Assembly (NCBI RefSeq): GCF_013302895.1
Contig: NZ_VJOK01000001.1
Location: 2,914,600 to 2,978,599 of the forward strand
From: Streptomyces albus subsp. chlorinus
Lineage (GTDB): Bacteria > Actinomycetota > Actinomycetes > Streptomycetales > Streptomycetaceae
DNA length: 64,000 bases
Direction of reading: 5' to 3'
In this document: positions 3,720 through 14,511 of the stretch, one piece after another
How positions within the stretch are numbered: position 1 is the stretch's first letter
Layout of the letters: every line of letters begins with the position of its first letter
Notes under the pieces: model-generated
Told to the model about the DNA's origin: nothing
The model's database searches: none
What the model saw: only the letters and a program-made list of their open reading frames with translations
Made by a program: the position numbers and the translations under genes

Positions 3720-4502
3720 GTGCGCCCGCGACTGGAACGGCTCGTGCGCGAACTCGCCAAGTTCGGCGCCGTCGGCGCGCTGGGCTTCCTGGTGAACGTC
3801 GCGATCTTCAATCTGTGCATCCACACGTTCCAGCTCGCGCCCATCCGCTCCGGCGTCATCTCGCAGGTCGTCGCGATCGGCACCAACTACCTGGGCAACC
3901 GCTACTGGACGTACCGGGACATCGACAAGAGCCGCATCCACCGCGAGACGACGCTGTTCTTCTTCTTCAGCGGAATCGGTCTCGTCCTGGAGAACGGCAT
4001 CCTCGCCCTCTCGCACTACGGGTTCGGCTACACCTCGCCGCTCGCCGACAACATCGCCAAGAACGTCATCGGGCTGCTGCTCGGCACCGCCTTCCGCTTC
4101 TGGTCGTACCGCACCTGGGTCTTCCGGGTGGGGGCGCAGCAGGCGGCGGCGGAGGCCGGGGAAGCCGGGGAGACCGGCCGCGGGACGGGAGTCCGCGAGG
4201 CCGTCCCGCACGAGGCCGCCGACGGCGCCCGGTCCGCCGGGGTGCCGTACCCGGTCGGTCCGGCGCCCGCGGGGTCAGGCGCCGGGACGAGCGGTCTCGC
4301 CGGAGGTGTCGGGGCCGGTGGTGTCGGGGCCGGTGGCGTCGGAGCCGGTGGCGTCGGGGCAGGCTCCCCCGGCAGCGGGAGTCCCGGTACCGGTGGTACC
4401 GGTGGTGCCGGTGGCGTCGGGGCCGGCGGTGTCGGGGCAGGGGGCGGCGTCGGTGGCCTCGCGGCTGAGGAACAGCGCGAAGACCGGCGGCAGCTGCTGT
4501 AG
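3720..4502 (+). CDS. GtrA-like four-helix membrane protein
   Basis: GtrA/DPMS1-like proteins are small membrane proteins linked to export or flipping of polyprenyl-linked sugars for cell-surface glycans. The segment beginning LVRELAKFGAVGALGFLVNV is the family opening, followed by further membrane helices and a final FRFWSYRTWVF motif near residue 135. GTG 3720 has an AGGGGTG ribosome site; the frame is open further upstream. After residue about 140 comes a Gly/Ala/Val-rich repetitive tail of about 120 aa (GGVGAGGVGAGG type). The last 228 bases lie antisense to the histidine-kinase gene, so the true C-terminus is uncertain. Confidence 0.8.
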   Translation: MRPRLERLVRELAKFGAVGALGFLVNVAIFNLCIHTFQLAPIRSGVISQVVAIGTNYLGNRYWTYRDIDKSRIHRETTLFFFFSGIGLVLENGILALSHYGFGYTSPLADNIAKNVIGLLLGTAFRFWSYRTWVFRVGAQQAAAEAGEAGETGRGTGVREAVPHEAADGARSAGVPYPVGPAPAGSGAGTSGLAGGVGAGGVGAGGVGAGGVGAGSPGSGSPGTGGTGGAGGVGAGGVGAGGGVGGLAAEEQREDRRQLL

Positions 4503-5714
4503 GAGTTCCAGCCGGCCGCCGTCCGCCTCCGCCAGATCGCGGGCGACGGCGAGGCCGAGCCCGGTGGAGTTGTGGCCGCTGACCGTCCGCTCGAACACCC
4601 GGGACCCCAGCGCCTCGTCCACACCGGGCCCCTCGTCCGTGACCTCGACCACGACCTGGTTGCCGGTGACCCGGGTGCGCAGAGCGACGGTGCCGTCCCC
4701 GTGCATCAGCGAGTTCTCGATCAGCGTCGCGAGCACCTGCGCCACCGCTCCGGGGGTCCCCACGGCGCGCAGCCCCGTCTTCCCGGAGCGCACTATGGCC
4801 CGGCCCGCGCTGCGGTAGGCGGGCTTCCACTCCTCGATCTGCTGCTTGACGACCTCGTCCAGGTCGAAGCCCACGGCCGAGCCCGTGCGCGGGTCCCGGG
4901 AGTTGGTCAGCAGCCGCTGCACCACGTCGGTGAGCCGCTCGACCTGGGCCAGCGCGATGGTGGCCTCCTCCTTGACGACCGCCCGGTCCTCGGGCGCCTC
5001 GCCCTCGGAGGTCGCGATGATCTCCTCCAGCCGCATGGACAGGGCCGTCAGCGGGGTGCGCAGCTGGTGCGAGGCGTCGGCGGCCAGCCGCCGCTCGGCG
5101 GTCAGCATGCGGCCGATGCGGTCCGCGCTGGCGTCCAGCACGTCCGCGACCCGGTCCAGCTCGGGCACCCCGTAGCGGCGGTGCCTGGGGCGCGGGTCGC
5201 CGGAGCCGAGGCGTTCGGCGGTCTCGGCCAGGTCGGTCAGCGGCGCGGCCACCCGGTGGGCCTGGCGTACGGCCAGCGCCGCGGCGGCGACGACGGCGAG
5301 CAGCGCCACCGCCAGGATGATCAGCAGGGTGCGGCCGACCTCGGCGCGCACCGCCGAGCGGGACGCCTGCACGGTGACGCGCTCGCCGTGCGCGCCCGTC
5401 TCCCGCGCCTCGACGACCTCGCCCGAGGGCCGCTCGCCCACCTCGATGGGCGCGCGGTCGCCGGGCATGTCGACACGGATGTAGCGGACGTAGCGGTCCT
5501 TGGAGGCGGTGACGCCGATCGACGCCTTCGTCACCCTCTCCCCCGCGACCAGCCGGCTCTCGACGGTGGAGACGAGCCGGGATGCCTCGGCCCGGACGCT
5601 GTCGCGGGTGCTGCTCTCGATGGTGCGTGACTCGACGATGACGAGCGAGACGCCGAAGACCGCGACCACGACGAGGACGACGGCGAGGGTGGACAGGATC
5701 AGCCGGCGGCGCAC
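4275..5714 (-). CDS. Two-component sensor histidine kinase
   Basis: Membrane sensor kinase of 479 aa that would phosphorylate the response regulator encoded just upstream. It has an N-terminal helix (about 5-28), an extracytoplasmic region (30-125), a second helix (about 128-150), a HAMP linker, the phospho-acceptor box DASHQLRTPLTALS with His216, and an ATPase domain with ENSLMHGDGT (N box), DEGPGVDE (G1) and STGLGLAVARDL (G2). The last about 75 aa are a Thr/Gly/Asp-rich repeat overlapping the GtrA-like tail on the other strand. GTG start; 15 bases separate it from the regulator gene. The signal is unknown. Confidence 0.92.
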   Translation of the reverse strand: MRRRLILSTLAVVLVVVAVFGVSLVIVESRTIESSTRDSVRAEASRLVSTVESRLVAGERVTKASIGVTASKDRYVRYIRVDMPGDRAPIEVGERPSGEVVEARETGAHGERVTVQASRSAVRAEVGRTLLIILAVALLAVVAAAALAVRQAHRVAAPLTDLAETAERLGSGDPRPRHRRYGVPELDRVADVLDASADRIGRMLTAERRLAADASHQLRTPLTALSMRLEEIIATSEGEAPEDRAVVKEEATIALAQVERLTDVVQRLLTNSRDPRTGSAVGFDLDEVVKQQIEEWKPAYRSAGRAIVRSGKTGLRAVGTPGAVAQVLATLIENSLMHGDGTVALRTRVTGNQVVVEVTDEGPGVDEALGSRVFERTVSGHNSTGLGLAVARDLAEADGGRLELLQQLPPVFALFLSREATDAAPCPDTAGPDATGTTGTTGTGTPAAGGACPDATGSDATGPDTTGPDTSGETARPGA

Positions 5715-5729
5715 GTGCTGGTTACTTCC

Positions 5730-6410
5730 CTAGCTCTTCTCGAAGCGGAAGCCGACGCCGCGCACGGTGGCGATGTAGCGCGGATTGGCCGCGTCGTCCC
5801 CGAGCTTCTTGCGCAGCCAGGAGATGTGCATGTCGAGCGTCTTGGTGGACGACCACCAGGTGGTGTCCCACACCTCGCGCATCAGCTGGTCCCGGGTGAC
5901 GACCCGGCCCGCGTCCCGCACCAGCACCCGCAGCAGGTCGAACTCCTTGGCGGTCAGTTGCAGCTCCTCGTCGCCCATCCAGGCGCGGTGCGACTCGACG
6001 TCGATCCGCACCCCGTGGGTGGTCGGGGGCTGGGCGGACTCGGCCGGTGAACCGCGGCGCAGCAGGGCCCGCACCCGCGCCAGCAGCTCGGCGAGGCGGA
6101 ACGGCTTGGTGACGTAGTCGTCCGCGCCCGCGTCGAGGCCGACGACGGTGTCCACCTCGTCGGCGCGCGCGGTCAGGACGAGGACGGGGAAGGTGTGGCC
6201 CTCGTTCCGCAGCCTGCGGCACACCTCGAGACCGTCCATCCCGGGCAGTCCCAGATCCAGCACGACCAGGTCGATGCCCTCGCGCAGTCCGGCGTCCAGC
6301 GCGGTGGGACCGTCCTCGCGCACCTCGACCTCGTACCCCTCCCGGCGCAGGGCACGGGCCAGGGGCTCCGAGATCGACGCGTCATCCTCGGCGAGCAGTA
6401 CACGGGTCAT
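5730..6410 (-). CDS. OmpR-family response regulator
   Basis: DNA-binding response regulator of 226 aa, first gene of a two-gene operon with the histidine kinase. The receiver domain (1-115) has the acidic pair D9-D10, phospho-acceptor D52 in LDLGLPGMDG, T80 and K102 in VTKPF. The C-terminal winged helix (about 130-224) has the usual LTAKEFDLLRVL and the recognition region with TLDMHISWLRKKLGDD. It is divergent to the POT transporter gene, which may be a target, but that is inference from position only. Confidence 0.94.
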   Translation of the reverse strand: MTRVLLAEDDASISEPLARALRREGYEVEVREDGPTALDAGLREGIDLVVLDLGLPGMDGLEVCRRLRNEGHTFPVLVLTARADEVDTVVGLDAGADDYVTKPFRLAELLARVRALLRRGSPAESAQPPTTHGVRIDVESHRAWMGDEELQLTAKEFDLLRVLVRDAGRVVTRDQLMREVWDTTWWSSTKTLDMHISWLRKKLGDDAANPRYIATVRGVGFRFEKS

Positions 6411-6777: not shown

Positions 6778-8271
6778 ATGGCGTCCAGTCTGACGAAGGA
6801 CGCGGCCGGCTACACCGGCGGCAAGACCTTCTTCGGCCACCCACGAGGTCTGGCCACCCTGTTCATGACCGAGATGTGGGAGCGCTTCAGCTTCTACGGC
6901 ATGCGTGCCCTGCTGGTGCTCTACCTGACGGCCGCCGCGGCGGACGGCGGCATGGGCATGGCGGCGTCCACCGCCGTGGCCCTGTACTCCGTCTACAACG
7001 CCACGGTCTACCTGATGTCGATGCCGGGCGGCTGGCTCGGCGACCGGGTGTGGGGGCCGCGCAAGACGGTCACCATCTCCGCCGCGGTCATCATGATCGG
7101 GCACGCGCTGCTGGCCGTCGGCGTGAACGCGCTGTTCTTCGTCGGCCTCGTCTTCATCGGCGTCGGCTCCGGCCTGCTGAAGGCCAACATCTCCACGATG
7201 GTCGGCCAGCTCTACAAGGGCCCCGAGGACCCGCGCCGCGACGGCGGCTTCACCGTCTTCTACATGGGCATCAACATCGGCGGCTTCTCCGCCCCGCTGC
7301 TCATCGGCTGGGCCGGCGAGAAGATCAGCTGGCACCTGGGCTTCGGGCTGGCCGCCGCCGGTATGGGCCTCGGCCTGATCCAGTTCCTCCGCGGCAGCCG
7401 GCACCTGGCCGCTGACTCCACCGTGGTCCCCAACCCGCTGAGCGCCCAGGAGCGCGCCAAGGCGCTGCGCAACCTGGTCGTCAGCGTCGTGGTGCTGGCG
7501 GTCTTCTACGCCGTCATCGTCTTCGCCGACCTGTTCACCATCGACTGGGTGCTGTGGCCGGTCTCCATCCTCGGCATCCTGCTGCCGACCTACTACTTCA
7601 CGCGGATGCGCCGCGACCGCGAGGTCTCGCCCGGCGAGAAGTCCAAACTGACCGCCTACATCTGGTTCTTCGTCGCGGCGGCCATCTTCTGGATGATCTT
7701 CGACCAGGCCGGTTCCACGCTGAACCTCTTCGCCGAGGAGAACACCTCCAAGAGCCTGTTCGGCCTCACCTTCCCCACCAGCTGGTTCCAGTCGGTCAAC
7801 TCCCTGTGGGTGATGATCCTCGCACCCGTCCTGGCGGCCCTGTGGGTCAAGCTGGGCAGGCGGAACCCGTCCACCACCTCGAAGTTCTCCGTCGGCCTGA
7901 TCGGCATCGGCGCCTCCTTCGGCCTGATGATGCTGGCCATGGGCGCGGCCGCCGGCGGCGTCCAGGTCAGCCCCATGTGGCTGATCACGGTCTACCTGAT
8001 CCAGACGATCGCCGAGCTGTGCCTCTCCCCGGTCGGCCTGTCGGTGACCACCAAGCTGGCGCCCGCCAAGTACGCCAGCCAGCTCATGGGCGTGTGGTTC
8101 CTGGCCGTCACCGCCGGTGACTGCGTCTTCGCCATCGTCAAGCTCGTCGTCGGGGACGCCGCCAGCGGCAAGACGGGCTTCGCCGTCCAGGGCGTCATCG
8201 CCGCCCTCGCGGGCATCGCCTTCCTGGCCGCCCGCAACAAGATGAGGCCCCTCCTGGGCTCGGTGAAATAG
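6778..8271 (+). CDS. POT/PTR family proton-coupled oligopeptide transporter
   Basis: Imports di- and tripeptides with protons. The 497-aa protein has the POT signature ExxERF in TEMWERFSFYGMRALLVLYLT near residue 33, the FTVFYMGINIGGFSAPL motif near 160, and about 14 hydrophobic segments. ATG 6778 follows a GAGGAAAA stretch. It is divergent from the response regulator/kinase operon and is closed by a strong hairpin. It is a single-gene unit. Confidence 0.95.
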   Translation: MASSLTKDAAGYTGGKTFFGHPRGLATLFMTEMWERFSFYGMRALLVLYLTAAAADGGMGMAASTAVALYSVYNATVYLMSMPGGWLGDRVWGPRKTVTISAAVIMIGHALLAVGVNALFFVGLVFIGVGSGLLKANISTMVGQLYKGPEDPRRDGGFTVFYMGINIGGFSAPLLIGWAGEKISWHLGFGLAAAGMGLGLIQFLRGSRHLAADSTVVPNPLSAQERAKALRNLVVSVVVLAVFYAVIVFADLFTIDWVLWPVSILGILLPTYYFTRMRRDREVSPGEKSKLTAYIWFFVAAAIFWMIFDQAGSTLNLFAEENTSKSLFGLTFPTSWFQSVNSLWVMILAPVLAALWVKLGRRNPSTTSKFSVGLIGIGASFGLMMLAMGAAAGGVQVSPMWLITVYLIQTIAELCLSPVGLSVTTKLAPAKYASQLMGVWFLAVTAGDCVFAIVKLVVGDAASGKTGFAVQGVIAALAGIAFLAARNKMRPLLGSVK

Positions 8272-8688
8272 CTCTTCGCCCTGCGGGGAGGGTGCCCTCC
8301 GGCGCTCCCTGGAGAGCCGCCCCTCCCTCTCCCTGCACCGGTGCCTGCCGCCGGCGGTCCTGGACCGCCGGCGGCAGGCGTCGTTGAGGCGCGGCGGACG
8401 ACGACGAACCGGAGCGACGAACCGGAGCGACGAACCGCGGCGGTCCGTGTGGCGGTCCTGGCGGCGGTTTGTGGCGGTCCGTGACTGGCCCGGCGGCGGT
8501 CTGTGACGGTCCCGGCGTCGGCGCGTGCGGTCCGTAGCCGTCCCGGCAGCGATCTGCTACTGCCCCGGTATCGCGTGGCTGTCCCGGCGTCGGCCTCGGG
8601 GCACGTCGTCGGCTTCGGCGTCGGTTTCGATGGCGGCGTCGGTTCGGCGTCGGCCGTCGACTGTGGTCGGCGAGCGGCCGGGGACCGT
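8272..8688. repeat. Gene-free region with a hairpin and degenerate tandem repeats
   Basis: No gene supported. After the POT terminator come three tandem copies of a 13-base unit starting CGACGAACCG (8402-8440), then about 240 bases of degenerate GGCGGTCCGTG- and GGCGTCGG-like units reaching the stop of the next minus-strand gene. Reading frames crossing it are compositional artefacts. Confidence 0.6.
8343..8379 (+). terminator. Strong hairpin terminator after the POT transporter
   Basis: Perfect inverted repeat with 18-base arms (8343-8360 and 8362-8379) around a single central base, about 75 bases after the transporter stop. It begins with GCCTGCCG and ends with CGGCAGGC. It can serve both strands. 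Confidence 0.8.
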
Positions 8689-9660
8689 CTACGGTGACGG
8701 CTCCGCGGGGTCGGTGGCGGGGTGGGCCCCTCGGGGTGCCTGCGGGCCCTCGTTGGTCCGCCGTCCGCCTCCGCGGCGGGGAGGAACCGCCGAAGGGCGG
8801 CGGTCGGGGAGCGGGCGCAGCCGGTTGACCGCCGCCATGCCCAGCCGGAAGACCGCCACCGGAACCACCGCGCACAGCAGGATCCAGAAGAGGGTCACCC
8901 CCCACGGCCGCCCGACGTCCCAGGGCTGTTCCGTCAGCACCCGCCGGCCCAGCTTGGCCGCGACGGTGTAGTCCCCGTGGGCGCCCGAGGCCAGCTCGAC
9001 ATCCAGTTCGATCCGCGCCTTCTCCCCCGGATCCACCGTGCCGCGCCACTGCTGCCGCTCCCACTCGGGGGCGAGGACGCCGTGCGCGGTGCCCACGTCG
9101 AAGACGGGATCCCTGGCACGGTCGGAGCCCAGGTTGCCGACCGTCAGCACGAGCGTGCGCCGCTCCGGGGCGCCGAACCAGTTGAGCAGCCCGCTCTCCC
9201 CCTCCAGACGCGCCGCCAGGACGGCAAGCCGTCCGCCCGTACGGCGCTCGGGCAGCGGCTTGACCGGGTGGCCGGCGACCCGGAGGGCGGCGTCGGCCGC
9301 CGCGTACGCACCGGTCACCGTCGCCGCCCGCACCACGCACGGGCACGGCTCGGGCGGCTCGGCCACGGGCAGCTCCTCGCGGAAGCGGCCGTCCGCGTCG
9401 GTGGTGACGGCCCGCCCCTCCGCGTTGGCGCAGGTGTTGGTGCCGCCGATGGCCTTCCGGCCGCACACCAGCAGGGTGAGCAGGGTCTCGGGCCGCCAGC
9501 CGGCACCCCGCACGGTGAGGCTCGCACCGGCGCCCACCTCCGCGCGGGAGAGGGTGATCCTCGGGCGGTCGGCCGCGCCGGCGGCGGGGTGGACCGCCAG
9601 CAGCACGCCCACCACCACGAAACCCACCAGACACGCGGTCGCCCGGACACTCGTCCTCAC
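8689..9660 (-). CDS. Ig-like membrane-anchored surface protein, third gene of WxL-like operon
   Basis: Protein of 323 aa with a signal peptide or signal anchor (about 5-28, ACLVGFVVVGVLLAVHPAAG), a predicted IPT/Ig-like extracellular domain (RITLSRAEVGAGASLTV, with cysteines at VCG, NTCAN and CPC), a second beta-rich segment (LTVGNLGSDRARDPVFDVG) and a C-terminal helix (GVTLFWILLCAVVPVAVF) with a short basic tail. The GTG overlaps the correct-frame stop of the preceding gene as GTGA. It is fused to that gene in one open frame only because of an apparent one-base frameshift. The exact family is unrecognised; a role at the cell surface is inferred. Confidence 0.7.
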   Translation of the reverse strand: MRTSVRATACLVGFVVVGVLLAVHPAAGAADRPRITLSRAEVGAGASLTVRGAGWRPETLLTLLVCGRKAIGGTNTCANAEGRAVTTDADGRFREELPVAEPPEPCPCVVRAATVTGAYAAADAALRVAGHPVKPLPERRTGGRLAVLAARLEGESGLLNWFGAPERRTLVLTVGNLGSDRARDPVFDVGTAHGVLAPEWERQQWRGTVDPGEKARIELDVELASGAHGDYTVAAKLGRRVLTEQPWDVGRPWGVTLFWILLCAVVPVAVFRLGMAAVNRLRPLPDRRPSAVPPRRGGGRRTNEGPQAPRGAHPATDPAEPSP

Positions 9661-11010
9661 TTCGCCGCTCCCGTCAGCTCGCGCTGCCCCCCGCTGTCCT
9701 CGCCGCCGCCGGACCCGCCGGACCCGCCGTGCCCCGCCGCCGGGCCCGCTGTCCCCGCCGCCGGGCCCGCTGTCCTCGCCGCCGGACCCGCCGTCACCCC
9801 TGCCACCGCCACCACCGACGACCCCGCTCCCCCCAGAGCCCCCGCTGTTCCCGGTGCCCCCGTTGTCCCCGCTGTTCCCGACGCCGGTGCTGCCGGCGGC
9901 GCCCGTACCGTCGGTGGCACCGGTGCCGCCGCCCGACGCCACCGCGCCGTCCGTTCGCCGGCGCCCGCGCAGACACCAGCCCGCGCCGCCCGCCGCCGCC
10001 ACCAGCAGGAGGCCGGCCGCCCACCCCCACGGGAGGGCGGTGTAGGAGGCGGTGGCCGTGTCCCGCGCGCCGCCGCCCGCCGTGGCGGTGAGCCGCACGT
10101 CCGCCAGGTCAGCGCGCGGCGGGTCGGCCCACTTCTCGTGCCGGGTGACGCGCTGGCCCGGCAGCAGTTCCAGCGGCAGCAGCCGGGGCGCGGGTACGTT
10201 CAGCCGCCCGAACAGTCCGTCGGCGCGGACGGTCAGCCGGGGGCGCAACGCCGTGTTCCCGCGGTTGACCAGCGTGTAGGTGAGCGTCGCGGCGCCGTCG
10301 TCCCGCCGTGTGACCGAGACGTCCTCGATGCCGAGCGCGGCCAGGGACGGGCCGCTGACCCGCAGGTGGACGCGGACACCCGAGGTGCGCTCCGGGGCGC
10401 TGACGACGATCGCGGCCGGGTGGTCGCCGGGCACCGCGCTCTCGGGCACGGTGACGCTCAGCGGCACCTCCGCCCTGGTCCGGGGCGGCACCTCCACCGT
10501 GTCCCGGGCGAGCGCGATCCATGTGCCCGCGCCCGCGCTGCGCCCCTCGTCGCGGAGGGCGAACCCGCCGCCGCGCGCGTTGTAGGCGTCGGCACCGCGC
10601 AGCCGGAAGGTGCGGGGCTCGTCGCCGCGGTTGGTGAGCGCGAGGGAATCCCTCAGCACGGTGCCGGGCGCACCCTCAAGGTAGAAGAAGGACCGCGCGT
10701 CCCCTTCCGCGCTCCGGTTCGCATCCCCCGCGGGCGGCGAGGGCGCCGCCGACCAGGAGGGCCCGCCCTCCTCGTGCGGCGCGGCCACGGCCGTCCCGCC
10801 GCACACGCACACGCACACGCACACCACAGCGAGCAGCACCCCCAGCACCACCCCCCGCACCGCCAGCCCGACCCCCCGCCCACCCGTCCGGCCGCCCCGG
10901 GACGGGGGCCGGACGGGGCCGGGTCGGGGGTGCGGTGCGGCGGGGGCGGTTGCTGGCTCGCCGGCCGGGGGGCGGGTGCCCGGGGTGGCGGGCGCGGCAG
11001 GGTCCCTCAC
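9657..11010 (-). CDS. WxL/DUF916-like cell-surface protein with apparent +1 frameshift
   Basis: Secreted, membrane-anchored protein. A long signal sequence carrying a Val-Cys repeat is followed by a domain opening SFFYLEGAPGTVLRDSLAL, which resembles the peptidoglycan-binding domain of WxL-interacting proteins (DUF916), then a second beta domain, a helix (WGWAAGLLLVAAAGGAGW) and a Gly/Ser-rich tail. Up to about 9740 coding runs in the GTG-11010 frame. From there third-position GC and a natural ending (SGGQRELTGAAK, stop at 9657) lie in another frame. The span is one base longer than a multiple of three, fitting one extra G in the four-G run at 9732-9735. The start lies three bases after the LPKTG gene. 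Confidence 0.65.
10801..10826 (-). repeat. Hexanucleotide tandem repeat in signal peptide
   Basis: Four copies of a CACACG-type hexamer encode alternating Val-Cys in the signal peptide of the DUF916-like gene. Length changes would be in frame, so they would alter hydrophobic length rather than switch the gene off. Confidence 0.6.
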
Positions 11011-11013
11011 GGG

Positions 11014-11787
11014 TCAGTGCCGGACCGCGGCCCTGCGCCGCGTGACCCACAGGGCTCCGCCGACCCCGGCCAGGAGGACGGTTCCGCCGAGGGTGCCGAG
11101 GGCGACGGCCGAGTCGGCGGGGCCGGTCTTGGGCAGTCCGCCGCCGCTGGGGGCCGATCCGCCGGTGGCCGCCGCGCCGCCGGATGTCGCGTCGCCGCCT
11201 CCGCCCGTCGCGCCGCCGGAGGCGTCCCCGCCGCCGGTACCGCCGCCGGAACCACCGCCGCCCGCCGCGGTCACGTCGAGGGTGAGGGAGGGCTTGGGGT
11301 TGTTCTTGGGCTCGCAGGTGGTGGTCGTGCCCAGCGCCTTGATGGTGAGCGTGCTGGCGGTGAAGGTGACCTTGCCGCTCTTCTTCGGCGTGTAGGTGCC
11401 GGAGAGGTCCGGGATCTTGATGGGCGTGTTCGCGGGGATCGCCTTGTCGTTGGGCGGTCCGGTCACGGGGATGGTGCCGGTCTCGGCGCCGCCGAGCTTG
11501 ATCTTGGCGCTGGGGTTCATCGCGCCTTTGCCCAGTTCGATGGGGCTGGAGGAGACGCCCTTCTCGAAGGACATCGTCAGCTTGTAACCGCTGCCGCTCT
11601 TCACGGACTTGATGTCGATGGGCGAGACGGCACCCTTGTCGCCGATGGGCGTCTTGCACTGGTAGTCGACATCGACGGTCGTGGCGCTCGCGGCCGGGGC
11701 CGTCAGCAGTACGGCTGATCCGGCGACGAGGGTCGCCACCGCCGTGGCGGCGGCCGCGCGGACGGGGCGTTTCTTGCTGTGGGACAC
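11014..11787 (-). CDS. LPXTG-type sortase-anchored surface protein
   Basis: Secreted wall protein of 257 aa. Signal peptide 1-35 ends PAASA; the mature beta-rich part (36-165) contains two cysteines (YQCKT, TTCEP) and may form one Ig-like domain; a Gly/Ser/Thr linker follows, then GLPKTGPADS near residue 215, a hydrophobic segment and a basic end (VTRRRAAVRH). That is a canonical sortase sorting signal. It is first in an operon with the two membrane-anchored surface proteins downstream, which suggests they form a surface complex. The mature domain is not recognised. Confidence 0.85.
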   Translation of the reverse strand: MSHSKKRPVRAAAATAVATLVAGSAVLLTAPAASATTVDVDYQCKTPIGDKGAVSPIDIKSVKSGSGYKLTMSFEKGVSSSPIELGKGAMNPSAKIKLGGAETGTIPVTGPPNDKAIPANTPIKIPDLSGTYTPKKSGKVTFTASTLTIKALGTTTTCEPKNNPKPSLTLDVTAAGGGGSGGGTGGGDASGGATGGGGDATSGGAAATGGSAPSGGGLPKTGPADSAVALGTLGGTVLLAGVGGALWVTRRRAAVRH

Positions 11788-11900
11788 GGGGGTTCCCCCT
11801 TCATCCGGACTCGCAAGTTACTGACGACACATCAGATTTGGCGCCGACAGTAGCCCCAGCCCCTTGCCGAGGGAAGACCACCGGCACACCGGAGCGAAAA

Positions 11901-11944
11901 GGGCGGGGGCCCGGTGGCCGGTACCGGCCACCGGGCCCCCGCCC
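11901..11944 (-). terminator. 44-base perfect palindrome, terminator of the HATPase gene
   Basis: Perfect palindrome with 22-base arms meeting at 11922/11923 (centre GGTACC), beginning GGGCGGGGGCC. It sits 25 bases after the anti-sigma kinase stop. With no natural loop it would fold as a very stable hairpin or cruciform. Confidence 0.75.
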
Positions 11945-11968
11945 GTGCGATGTCGTGGTGCGCCCCGG

Positions 11969-12679
11969 TCAGTTGGGGGCCGCGAGTTCCGCCCACACCG
12001 TCTTGCCCACCCCGTCCGGGTTGCGCACCACGCCCCAGTCGAGGCACAGCCGCTGGACGATGAACATGCCGTGCCCGCCGGGCCGCCCGGCGCGGTGCGG
12101 GGTCCGCGGGGAGGGCGAGCCGCTGCCCAGGTCGACGATCTCCAGGCGGAGCACCTTCGAGTTGGCGCCCACGCGCAGCTCCTCCGGCCCGTTGGCGTGC
12201 AGGCACGCGTTGGTGACCAGCTCGGAGACGACCAGCAGCACGTCCTCGGCGGCGGCGCGCTGGTCGGCGGTGGCGGCCGGCAGCCAGCCCCAGTCGTGGA
12301 GGGCCTGGCGGGTGAAGTCCCGCGCGCGGGGCACGGCGCCGCTGGCACCGACGAGCCGCAGTCTGCGCACCTGCCGCATCGGCCGGCCTGCCTGGCGCGC
12401 GGTCCCTGCGGCGGCCGAGGCCGCACTCTCCGCAGCGGTCCCCATGGCGCCACTCCCCCCTTCGGGTTCGGGTGCGGACGTGGAAGCAGCCGCGGAATCG
12501 AAGACTCCGGATGTCGGCCCACGCCCAGTATCCGTACCGGCTCGCACCCGCGCACCGGCGGCCCCCGCCTCAGCGGTGTCCGCCGCCGCGCCTCCGGCGC
12601 ACCCGTGGGCCGCGGCGTCCGGGGCACCCTCGGGCTCCGGACCGCGGTCGCCCGCCGGTTGCGGCCGGGTGGTGCTCAT
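11969..12679 (-). CDS. Anti-sigma serine kinase-like HATPase (RsbW/SpoIIAB type)
   Basis: In partner switching such kinases bind a sigma factor and phosphorylate a STAS antagonist. The 236-aa protein has a disordered Ala/Pro/Gly-rich N-terminus (1-100) and a HATPase_c_2 domain (about 105-235) with the N box VSELVTNACLHA, a degraded G1 (LEIVDLGSGSPSP) and GHGMFIVQRLCLDWG. The ATG at 12679 has a GAGGTGA site. It follows the STAS gene on the same strand, opposite the sigma gene. Many Streptomyces proteins of this class lack proven partners, so the target is inferred from position. Confidence 0.85.
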   Translation of the reverse strand: MSTTRPQPAGDRGPEPEGAPDAAAHGCAGGAAADTAEAGAAGARVRAGTDTGRGPTSGVFDSAAASTSAPEPEGGSGAMGTAAESAASAAAGTARQAGRPMRQVRRLRLVGASGAVPRARDFTRQALHDWGWLPAATADQRAAAEDVLLVVSELVTNACLHANGPEELRVGANSKVLRLEIVDLGSGSPSPRTPHRAGRPGGHGMFIVQRLCLDWGVVRNPDGVGKTVWAELAAPN

Positions 12680-12859
12680 CAGTGGTTCACCTCACCGATC
12701 ACCGGTTGCCGATTCGCCGTCCCACGTCCGGTCCGCCCAGGGCGGTTCCTTGACGCGCTGTACACGAATGTCTGACAGATTCGTTGGACTCCTGCCCGGA
12801 CGCACCGTGAGAACACTTACGGATTCGGCCGGACCTGTGTGATGCGTGTAACGCGTCGG

Positions 12860-13258
12860 TCACGCGTCGGGCTTCTGTGCCGCACCCGAGGGGGGCCGCA
12901 GAGCCGAGTCGAGGTCGTCGTGCACGGTGAAGACCACGGCGGCTCCGGTGATCTCGAACACGCGCGCGACGACCGGGAGCATCCCCGCCAGGTGCACACC
13001 GCCCCCCGCGGCCTCGGCCTTCAGCCGGGCGCCGAGCAGGACGTTCAGCCCCGTCGAGTCGCAGAACTCGAGCCGCGAGCAGTCCACGACGAGGCGGCTG
13101 TACCCCTCGTCGACGCTGCGCTCCAGCGGCTCGCGCAGCAGTTCCGCGGTGTGGTGGTCCAGCTCACCCTCCGGGGTCACCACGGCACTCTCTCCTACGT
13201 GCCGTACGTCGACCGTCAGCCGGCCCCGGCTTGTGCTGCCGGGCATCCCGCGGTCCAT
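12860..13258 (-). CDS. STAS-domain anti-sigma factor antagonist
   Basis: SpoIIAA/RsbV-like antagonist that would bind the HATPase kinase when unphosphorylated. The STAS domain runs from LTVDVRHVGESAVVTPEGELD to about residue 120; the phosphorylatable serine is in LEFCDSTGLNVLLGA. ATG 13258 is preferred because of the AAGGGGTG ribosome site five bases upstream; GTG 13291, with a GGGGGAA stretch upstream, would add 11 residues. It is divergent from the sigma gene and followed by the anti-sigma kinase gene. Confidence 0.88.
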   Translation of the reverse strand: MDRGMPGSTSRGRLTVDVRHVGESAVVTPEGELDHHTAELLREPLERSVDEGYSRLVVDCSRLEFCDSTGLNVLLGARLKAEAAGGGVHLAGMLPVVARVFEITGAAVVFTVHDDLDSALRPPSGAAQKPDA

Positions 13259-13518
13259 GCACACCCCTTCTCGTCGCGTGAGGGCCTTCACTGCTTCCCC
13301 CGTCGAGCGGTTCGAACCCTACGCCTTCGACGGCTCTACCGGTAGCCGAACATTGGACATAACGCATGTGATGTGAACAAAACGAACTTGCTCTGGCTGT
13401 GGAGAAGCAGGTAGGTCTAATAGGGATACCGAACCAACGTCGGCCTTGGAGGCGCCGCACCCCGCAGTGCACGTCACGGCTTCGGCAGCCATATGCCGAG
13501 AAACCATGGAGGACAGCC

Positions 13519-14511
13519 ATGTCACCCCGGCTCGCCAACGGGATATCCGACCCCGCTGATACGCAGGTCGCGACCGCTCCCGCCGTTCCGGAGCAGCCCA
13601 GCCCGGACTCCCTGCCGGATTCCCACCCTCTGCCCACCGACGCCCTCGGCGGCGATCCCACGAGTGCGGAGCAGATCGCCGAGGCGGTGGAAGCCGACCT
13701 CTTCGATCAGCTCCAGCTCCCCGAGATCCCACCCTACGACGAGGTCGGCCCGCTGGACGCGCGGGCCCTGTCCAAGACGCTCTTCCGGCGTCTGGAGACC
13801 CTCGAAGAGGGCACCCACGAATACGCGTACGTACGCAACACGCTCGTCGAACTCAATCTGGCGCTCGTCAAGTTCGCGGCCTCCCGCTTCCGCTCGCGCA
13901 GCGAGCCGATGGAGGACATCGTCCAGGTCGGCACGATCGGTCTGATCAAGGCGATCGACCGCTTCGAACTCGACCGCGGCGTGGAGTTCCCCACCTTCGC
14001 GATGCCGACCATCGTCGGCGAGATCAAGCGCTTCTTCCGCGACACCTCCTGGTCGGTGCGGGTACCCCGCCGCCTCCAGGAGCTGCGGCTCGACCTGGCC
14101 AAGGCGGGCGACGAACTCGCCCAGAAGCTGGACCGCGCGCCGACCGTCGAGGAGCTGGCCCAGCGCCTGAAGATCTCCACCGAGGAGGTCGTCGAGGGCA
14201 TGGCCGCGAGCAACGCCTACACGGCCAGCTCGCTGGACGCCCAGCCCGAGGAGGACGACACCGAGGGCGCCCTGGCCGACCGCATCGGCTACGAGGACCA
14301 CGGGCTCGAAGGCATCGAGTACGTCGAGTCCCTCAAGCCCCTCATCGCCGAACTCCCCGCGCGTGACCGCAGAATCCTCTCGCTGCGCTTCGTGGCGAAC
14401 ATGACCCAGTCGGAGATCGGGGAGGAGCTGGGCATCTCCCAGATGCACGTCTCCCGCCTCCTGTCCCGCACCCTGGGCAAGCTCCGCAAGGGACTGATGA
14501 TCGAGGAATGA
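13519..14511 (+). CDS. RNA polymerase sigma factor, SigB/SigF family
   Basis: Group 3 sigma factor of 330 aa for stress or development promoters. After a disordered N-terminus (1-75) come region 2 (NLALVKFAASRFRSR, DIVQVGTIGLIKAIDRF, EFPTFAMPTIVGEIKRFFRD), region 3 (SWSVRVPRRLQELR) and region 4 (LPARDRRILSLRF, MTQSEIGEELGISQMHVSRLLSR). ATG 13519 has a TGGAGGA site; in-frame codons upstream are not coding. The divergent STAS and HATPase genes make it the likely target of a partner switch, similar to sigB-, sigI- and sigF-type loci of Streptomyces. Confidence 0.93.
   Translation: MSPRLANGISDPADTQVATAPAVPEQPSPDSLPDSHPLPTDALGGDPTSAEQIAEAVEADLFDQLQLPEIPPYDEVGPLDARALSKTLFRRLETLEEGTHEYAYVRNTLVELNLALVKFAASRFRSRSEPMEDIVQVGTIGLIKAIDRFELDRGVEFPTFAMPTIVGEIKRFFRDTSWSVRVPRRLQELRLDLAKAGDELAQKLDRAPTVEELAQRLKISTEEVVEGMAASNAYTASSLDAQPEEDDTEGALADRIGYEDHGLEGIEYVESLKPLIAELPARDRRILSLRFVANMTQSEIGEELGISQMHVSRLLSRTLGKLRKGLMIEE

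Follow-up and report, generated by a model that had tools for sequence, protein, structure and literature searches.

The gene sets that most resemble the locus described here are the WxL clusters of Bacillota. In the passages of the literature on which we draw, these clusters are described mainly from gut commensals (more than 91% of 938 WxL sequences fell within Firmicutes; PMC9772566), and they combine a small and a large WxL protein, a WxL-interacting protein (WxLIP) composed of DUF916, DUF3324 and a transmembrane (TM) stretch, and often an LPxTG protein (PMC9772566, PMC10599100). By the current view a WxLIP keeps WxL proteins attached to peptidoglycan by means of a peptidoglycan-binding domain (PGBD), and it has been proposed that the TM helix of WxLIPs enters the membrane of the host cell (PMC10599100). 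Here we analyzed a stretch of 64,000 nucleotides from Streptomyces albus subsp. chlorinus (assembly GCF_013302895.1, contig NZ_VJOK01000001.1, positions 2,914,600 to 2,978,599 of the forward strand), henceforth "the window", in which three adjoining minus-strand genes at 8689-11787 probably represent a sortase-anchored derivative of an actinobacterial WxL-WxLIP surface cluster. Since the defining WxL protein is absent, this is not a WxL cluster in the strict sense; the set is a derived, sortase-anchored variant. That the locus descends from a WxL cluster is, in our judgment, very probable. Its main features are listed below; signal and TM assignments come from hydropathy rather than from a dedicated predictor.

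11014..11787, minus strand: gene 1, predicted secreted sortase substrate of 257 amino acids (aa), from sequence and family scans
11263..11682, minus strand: g1 domain of gene 1, all-beta by prediction and a homologue of the domain with which some actinobacterial WxL proteins begin
11122..11136, minus strand: LPKTG sorting motif of gene 1
11044..11112, minus strand: C-terminal hydrophobic segment of gene 1 (hydropathy), followed by a basic tail
9657..10860, minus strand: gene 2, WxLIP homologue; start uncertain, at the GTG at 10860 or further up to 11010
10402..10701, minus strand: PF06030 (WxLIP_PGBD) match in gene 2, from family scans
9970..10026, minus strand: TM stretch of gene 2, barely above the hydropathy threshold, with an arginine-rich stretch behind it
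9661..9897, minus strand: glycine-rich tail of gene 2, containing a frameshift relative to relatives
9657..9660, minus strand: GTGA overlap, ancestral gene 2 stop over the gene 3 start
8689..9660, minus strand: gene 3, membrane-anchored protein of 323 aa
9271..9570, minus strand: neocarzinostatin-type domain of gene 3
8911..9231, minus strand: second Ig-like domain of gene 3
8836..8901, minus strand: TM helix of gene 3 (hydropathy, model)

The link to WxL systems depends first on gene 2, which a preliminary description of this DNA had likened to DUF916-containing WxL-interacting proteins. Its product begins with a signal-like stretch (residues 1-30) and continues with a PF06030 region, another Ig-like region and a TM stretch of weak score (279-297), behind which the sequence is rich in arginine. 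In single-protein scans PF06030 fell short of its cut-off (27.3 bits), with scores of 22.3 and 24.4 bits; the genome search gave 26.7 bits, or 27.6 with frame neighbors, which we counted as over that cut-off. Because these Pfam scores are marginal and FixG_C, another Ig model, also matches the family, we turned to profile comparison (72 gene 2 rows reduced to 44, of which 41 were used together with the window). When compared with 16 hand-picked actinobacterial WxLIPs that have a WxL gene nearby, the gene 2 family aligned with a probability of 100 (E 8.8e-56, 44% identity), and with eight Bacillota WxLIPs it aligned with a probability of 86.4 (E 4.7e-6) over 257 columns, through the TM stretch. 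Six of these eight lie beside a WxL gene, one beside a gene for a "cell surface protein", and one has neither in the stretch. Control profiles of gene 3 and of the g1 domain each reached a probability of 0.4 against the same eight proteins (E 0.16 and 0.17, respectively), and the 16 actinobacterial WxLIPs themselves matched the Bacillota set with a probability of 95 (E 3.8e-8). The second region of gene 2 aligns in place with the Bacillota WxLIPs, and the DUF3324 model has no match in gene 2. When gene 2 and gene 3 rows were aligned jointly, the gene 3 rows were placed onto gene 2.

Structure models cover the g1 domain and gene 3, gene 2 being judged by profiles and by a tree of 69 rows: 19 from the window-type gene set (locus A; every third row of the gene 2 alignment plus five further proteins), 42 actinobacterial PGBD proteins (three of them without a detected WxL gene) and eight from Bacillota. 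In this tree the locus-A gene 2 proteins formed a single clade (support 100/100), adjacent to eight Streptomyces WxLIPs linked to WxL genes (96/88), and both clades fell inside the actinobacterial set when Bacillota served as the far group. The controlled profile comparisons and the nested position make gene 2 a WxLIP by descent, in line with the likeness drawn earlier.

Gene 1 supplies the second line of evidence. As had been claimed at the outset, it bears the marks of an LPKTG-anchored secreted protein: an N-terminal signal-like stretch, a domain of about 140 residues (g1) and a linker rich in glycine, then LPKTG with a hydrophobic segment and a basic tail behind it. TIGR01167 recognizes these last three elements as a predicted sorting signal (19.1 bits vs. 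a cut-off of 15.9). A g1 profile (213 domain hits, of which 194 were long, reduced to 67 below 85% identity) matches the N-terminal part of actinobacterial WxL proteins with a probability of 99.5 over 143 columns. The same relationship can be seen between single proteins, since one product of gene 4, a g1-bearing gene of most relatives (see below), is 41% identical to one WxL protein over 169 aa, and gene 1 of the window is 29% identical to one over 115 aa (E 9e-10). That g1 is itself a disguised WxL domain was rejected (profile probability 0.2). The predicted structure of g1 is confident (mean pLDDT 94.3); Foldseek found zero matches to it in the PDB at E <= 0.001, and a second structural aligner gave as its best match PDB 3lso, a putative membrane-anchored protein of Corynebacterium diphtheriae (Z 9.6, 132/140 residues, 21% identity; runner-up Z 6.8). 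PDB profile searches with the g1 alignment yielded no useful match and did not hit 3lso.

WxL operons are in fact present in Actinobacteria, including Streptomyces; the preliminary picture had lacked these operons, as it had the usual fourth gene and the neocarzinostatin-type domain of gene 3. Among 296 genomes from the actinobacterial class, 62 have a PF06030 match and 22 a match to PF13731, the WxL model, which exceeds the cut-off in 14 of the 22. In 40 PF06030 loci, hand-picked from the matches in those 62 genomes, a WxL-like gene stands beside the WxLIP gene in 37 (not in L225, L232 and L234), and in an independent Pfam check PF13731 matched 25 of 41 of these WxL domains (49 stretches reduced to 41) at E <= 0.01. 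The WxL protein starts with a g1 domain in 10 of the 40 loci, plus L060 and L061, and a profile of 10 such g1-bearing proteins, also hand-picked, reads g1 (probability 99.5), neocarzinostatin-like (85.5) and then WxL. A neocarzinostatin-type gene follows the WxLIP gene in five of the 40, and again in L060 and L061. Searches of these WxL proteins and their alignments against the PDB, as single queries and as a profile, gave no useful match.

Several of these operons deserve mention in their own right. Across the class-wide loci (L198-L237) WxL-WxLIP pairs are widespread; in them the second motif has departed from WxL, its consensus lying near YxAtLTLT. Five Streptomyces loci (L202, L204, L205, L207 and L208) encode, in this order, a small, apparently secreted g1-only protein, a protein with g1, a middle domain and WxL, and a WxLIP, and they are the closest cousins of the window locus. 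At L061:2575-9510, near a contig end, a WxL protein, a WxLIP and a neocarzinostatin-type protein are followed by a membrane-rich protein of 595 aa without a Pfam match and then by an open frame ending in an LPQTG signal.

The window locus has no WxL domain, and searches of the entire genome (7.6 Mb, 99.8% complete) with PF13731 and with the WxL profile, for which all 75 candidates were scored, detected none either. The same profile is positive in 53 of 121 Streptomyces genomes (32 candidates scored per genome). When the lists of genomes with gene 3 and with WxL, taken as the same draw of 121, were compared by eye, 48 genomes had both, 39 (including the window's) had gene 3 only, five had WxL only and 29 had neither. 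Since 39 genomes carry gene 3 without WxL, the locus-A set apparently manages without a WxL partner encoded at another site, as far as such presence and absence can tell. The suggestion that a sortase substrate had taken the place of the WxL protein is strengthened by the lack of a detected WxL domain in the window's genome and by the presence of g1 at the N-terminus of WxL proteins in paralogous loci. The simplest reading of these sequence relationships is that a WxL-bearing ancestor lost its WxL domain and that the g1 domain came to carry sortase signals.

Gene 3 had been described as an Ig-like, membrane-anchored protein. A signal-like stretch, a pair of Ig-like domains and a TM stretch can indeed be recognized in its product, and the outer domain is more specifically of the neocarzinostatin type, so that "Ig-like" alone does not describe it. 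PF00960 matches 42 of 43 gene 3 rows (80 named proteins reduced to 42, plus the window) at E <= 0.01, the window's own score of 24.0 bits lying just below the cut-off of 25, and NF040680, the enediyne chromoprotein model, matches all 43 at the same threshold. With the latter the window protein scores 29.5 and 37.6 bits, under the curated cut-off of 86 bits, and we accordingly rejected gene 3 as a true enediyne chromoprotein. In the predicted structure (mean pLDDT 78.9, with one weak loop) the second aligner matched the outer domain to macromomycin (Z 11.9, 94 residues, 24%) and neocarzinostatin (Z 11.4, 96 residues, 23%), both of which are carriers of a bound chromophore. Foldseek instead ranked two-domain proteins, RbmA and transglutaminases, at the top for gene 3, with the Enterococcus WxLIP at rank 41 and neocarzinostatin not among the 50 rows listed. 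A PDB profile search with the gene 3 alignment gave no useful match, and neither did a search for gene 3 in plasmids.

Four cysteines (C66, C77, C106 and C108) are invariant in all 43 gene 3 rows, the last two within a CPC motif. One conserved pair is presumably spaced like the first disulfide of neocarzinostatin, and the CPC motif sits where, as we take it, neocarzinostatin has its second cysteine pair. The CPC motif could be redox or metal related. No enediyne biosynthesis genes were seen among the scanned neighbors, although no search was aimed at such a link.

The gene order is not a peculiarity of this genome. Gene 3 was found in 87 and gene 1 in 88 of the 121 Streptomyces genomes drawn from the genus, the window's own included in each case (one, G065, has gene 1 only at E 6e-4). 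For gene order we used 80 named loci, the best 80 of 466 confirmed gene 3 matches and thus biased to close relatives, and gene 1, gene 2 and gene 3 follow one another in 72 of them. A chance cluster, or one unique to this genome, was rejected on these counts, and the expectation that the three-gene order would be conserved across Streptomyces was upheld. The best named matches to the window locus are in S. smyrnaeus, S. albus and S. cacaoi. In comparisons of the genes with those of six relatives the third codon position differed most often in 18 of 18 cases, a pattern that fits selection on the encoded proteins.

In 67 of the 80 named loci a fourth gene is present. It contributes two further g1 domains, bringing the total to three in 65 of 81 loci (the window counted), and it is absent from the window, where its usual site can be given as follows.

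8272..8688, no strand: site of gene 4 (two g1 domains and LAxTG) in most relatives, vacant in the window

No relic of gene 4 was found at 8272-8688, the 12 best tblastn rows listed all falling on gene 1; at 8300-8688 there is a degenerate GCCGACGCCG-like repetitive stretch. Eight of the 13 loci without gene 4 belong to the window's nearest relatives (S. smyrnaeus, S. diacarni, S. reniochalinae, S. oryzae, S. spirodelae, S. albus, S. qinglanensis and S. cacaoi); of the other five, four also lack gene 2 and one lies at a contig edge. The two kinds of g1 protein have different sorting motifs: of 80 gene 1 proteins, the window's among them, 78 have LPxTG, and of 67 gene 4 proteins 66 have LAxTG. 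One LSRTG, one ending that is apparently frame-changed and one contig end account for the remaining three. This near-strict split between paralogous domains of one gene set offers a natural test of the division of labor between sortase signals.

Consecutive minus-strand genes with the contents and coordinates first described are indeed what this region holds, with one correction besides that on the outer domain of gene 3: in the window genes 2 and 3 are not separate. Positions 8689-11010 of the minus strand form a single open frame of 773 aa, spanning what relatives split into the two genes. The ending of gene 2 known from relatives, with its stop over the GTG start of gene 3, can be read in the window as well, though in a frame other than that of the gene 2 ectodomain. 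L185 is the one locus among the 80 relatives that likewise has both genes in one frame. Of the 73 named loci having both genes, 69 show a gene 2 stop that overlaps with an in-frame gene 3 start, and this stop also overlaps the gene 3 start in eight of nine near relatives (the exception being L112). Because of these 69 of 73 loci, separate genes 1, 2 and 3 are most likely the ancestral layout and a fused 773-aa protein is disfavored as the ancestral product; a phmmer search of the fused frame against the PDB gave no useful match. The comparison suggests that the glycine-rich tail of gene 2 either underwent a frameshift recently or contains a sequencing error, two causes that are indistinguishable here. 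In all 67 loci where gene 4 comes next, the stop of gene 3 likewise lies over a start codon, counted in any frame, and such overlaps suggest translational coupling.

A number of observations weigh against the derivation from WxL clusters proposed here. Row by row PF06030 matches the gene 2 family weakly (26 of 42 rows at E <= 0.01), and FixG_C matches 21 of 42 with a better best E-value (8e-8 vs. 3.4e-6 for PF06030). PF06030 is also found in a control genome, that of Thermotoga maritima, so it is not confined to WxL systems; to our knowledge this organism lies outside any WxL group. In a search of PDB sequences with the gene 2 profile the top match was the R4 surface protein of group B streptococci (E 2e-4, 37 residues), the Enterococcus WxLIP reaching only E 0.3, and the alignment between actinobacterial and Bacillota WxLIPs spans the PGBD only. 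The WxL profile used for the 40 loci was iterated on those same loci. The tree was rooted at the midpoint, on the branch to Bacillota, whose rows are long-branched and differ in composition, and the direction of change therefore rests on Bacillota as the outgroup. Gene 2 was not found in seven of the 80 loci in which genes 1 and 3 remain. Finally, PF04203 detects three sortases in the window's genome, all of class E and grouped at G000:C1:3755384-3759220 (L062, L063 and L064), and none of another class, though gene 1 carries LPKTG. The class E sortase SrtE1 of S. coelicolor reportedly prefers LAETG over LPETG (PMC5148588), so that either one of the class E enzymes here accepts LPKTG or a sortase was missed.

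With these reservations, the following scheme can be proposed. The parental type would have consisted of a secreted protein with an N-terminal g1 domain, a neocarzinostatin-like domain and a C-terminal WxL domain, followed by a WxLIP that joins a peptidoglycan-binding Ig domain to another Ig domain and a TM helix. In the derived type the WxL domain would have been lost, with g1 carried by gene 1 (LPxTG) and, in most relatives, in two further copies by gene 4 (LAxTG), the WxLIP retained as gene 2, and gene 3 encoding the membrane-anchored, neocarzinostatin-type protein. The products would be exported, and sortases would link the g1 proteins of gene 1 (and of gene 4 where present) to peptidoglycan. 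The gene 2 and gene 3 products, held in the bacterium's own membrane, would extend into the wall, where they would bind both peptidoglycan and the g1 proteins; with WxL gone, the g1 proteins and gene 3 would be the natural candidates for the ligand of gene 2. The outcome would be a membrane-to-wall surface complex whose outward g1 domains may serve attachment or ligand capture. We put the formation of a physical complex at about even chances, and regard adhesion or ligand capture as a possible but doubtful outcome. The more general proposal, that WxLIPs can work without a WxL protein, an own-membrane WxLIP and its neocarzinostatin-type partner clamping wall-linked g1 proteins sorted by LPxTG and LAxTG, is put forward tentatively, with somewhat less than an even chance of being right.

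One may also consider that the set is a purely structural tether between membrane and wall in hyphae or spores, maintaining envelope integrity, with neither an adhesive nor a ligand role. Two membrane-anchored proteins with wall-facing Ig domains and proteins with sorting signals, all from one overlapping gene set, would suit such a function, and RsbW-like, STAS and sigma-70 neighbors would fit stress control. However, the large WxL protein of Bacillota is described, in the passages used here, as having N-terminal host-binding domains (PMC10599100), which suggests display, and we consider a mere tether rather unlikely. A unit for ligand capture or sensing, in which a peptide or small hydrophobic molecule binds at the surface to the neocarzinostatin-type domain, the wall-anchored g1 proteins concentrate it or pass it on, and a neighboring peptide transporter (POT) and two-component system are functionally linked to the process, appears improbable. 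It would agree with the structural match of the gene 3 outer domain to macromomycin and neocarzinostatin and with the family matches (PF00960 in 42 of 43 rows, NF040680 in all), as well as with the POT gene next door in 73 of the 80 named loci and the DraK-type kinase and response regulator beyond it in the window, but the fold match concerns the scaffold, the chromoprotein cut-off is missed (29.5 and 37.6 bits vs. 86), and the POT gene is convergent to the locus and outside the operon. That these are unrelated, generic Ig-like surface proteins lying together by chance, the DUF916 resemblance being a generic Ig-fold match, is very improbable: below-cut-off single-sequence Pfam scores, the FixG_C matches and the Thermotoga hit would allow it, but the WxLIP profile match with its clean negative controls, the nested tree position, the g1 domain shared with WxL proteins and the conserved overlapping genes all speak against it.

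As for the setting of the locus, on one flank lie the POT gene, the DraK-type histidine kinase and response regulator (4275-6410) and purine genes, and on the other (11969-14511) the RsbW-like, STAS and sigma-70 genes, whose presence may hint at stress control. One further feature may bear on the transcription of the locus.

11901..11944, minus strand: strong hairpin resembling an intrinsic terminator, between gene 1 and the upstream RsbW-like gene

This hairpin has a stem of 20 pairs followed by TTTT (three such sites were found vs. 0.8 expected in 8200-12100, both strands). It suggests that gene 1, which it separates from the RsbW-like gene, starts a transcription unit of its own.

Should the derivation from a WxL cluster hold, its interest would lie in several directions. 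Within a class where PF06030 occurs in about a fifth of the genomes examined, one branch of Streptomyces has no WxL gene at the locus. In a conserved Streptomyces WxLIP, a TM stretch and an arginine-rich end hint at a helix placed in the membrane of the bacterium itself, an idea that lends itself to direct testing. The neocarzinostatin-like modules may point to a possible origin of the enediyne carrier proteins. If the clamp proposed above is true, the locus would be a WxL-less surface machine born of an anchor swap, with the fold of enediyne carriers, that of neocarzinostatin, borrowed as a module of surface complexes. We found no published description of a WxL-less, sortase-anchored set, and no paper treating neocarzinostatin and WxL together, among the open papers listed, an absence that carries little weight.

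How does the locus compare with systems already described? The apoproteins of neocarzinostatin and macromomycin (PF00960) are the best structural matches of the first domain of gene 3, from which gene 3 differs in being membrane-anchored, in having a second Ig domain and in scoring under the chromoprotein cut-off. The C. diphtheriae protein 3lso is the best structural match of the g1 domain, unaccompanied by a sequence-profile hit to the g1 family. The stretch after its g1-like part resembles the first domain of gene 3 at Z 8.0, which is background level only; 3lso may thus hold a g1-type and then a neocarzinostatin-like domain, in the same order as in Streptomyces WxL proteins. CwpG of Actinoplanes missouriensis is a sortase substrate candidate with a neocarzinostatin-like domain, and its deletion reportedly left sporangium formation unchanged (PMC13251363). 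By that description it resembles gene 3 in placing such a domain on a predicted actinomycete surface protein, and differs from it in being the sortase substrate candidate itself.

With the WxL clusters of Bacillota the window locus shares a WxLIP-type protein (signal-like stretch, PGBD, putative second Ig region and TM stretch), an LPxTG protein and co-directional surface genes. It differs from them in the missing WxL protein, in a displayed domain that carries sortase signals, in the added neocarzinostatin-type protein and in its host genus, Streptomyces, which is not a gut commensal. Nearest of all are the actinobacterial WxL-WxLIP operons (such as L199, L205, L231 and L061), whose WxLIPs are the closest relatives of gene 2. 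Some of their WxL proteins start with g1 and have a neocarzinostatin-like middle, and in some operons a neocarzinostatin-type gene comes after the WxLIP gene. These operons keep the C-terminal WxL domain, whereas the window-type locus uses LPxTG and LAxTG instead.

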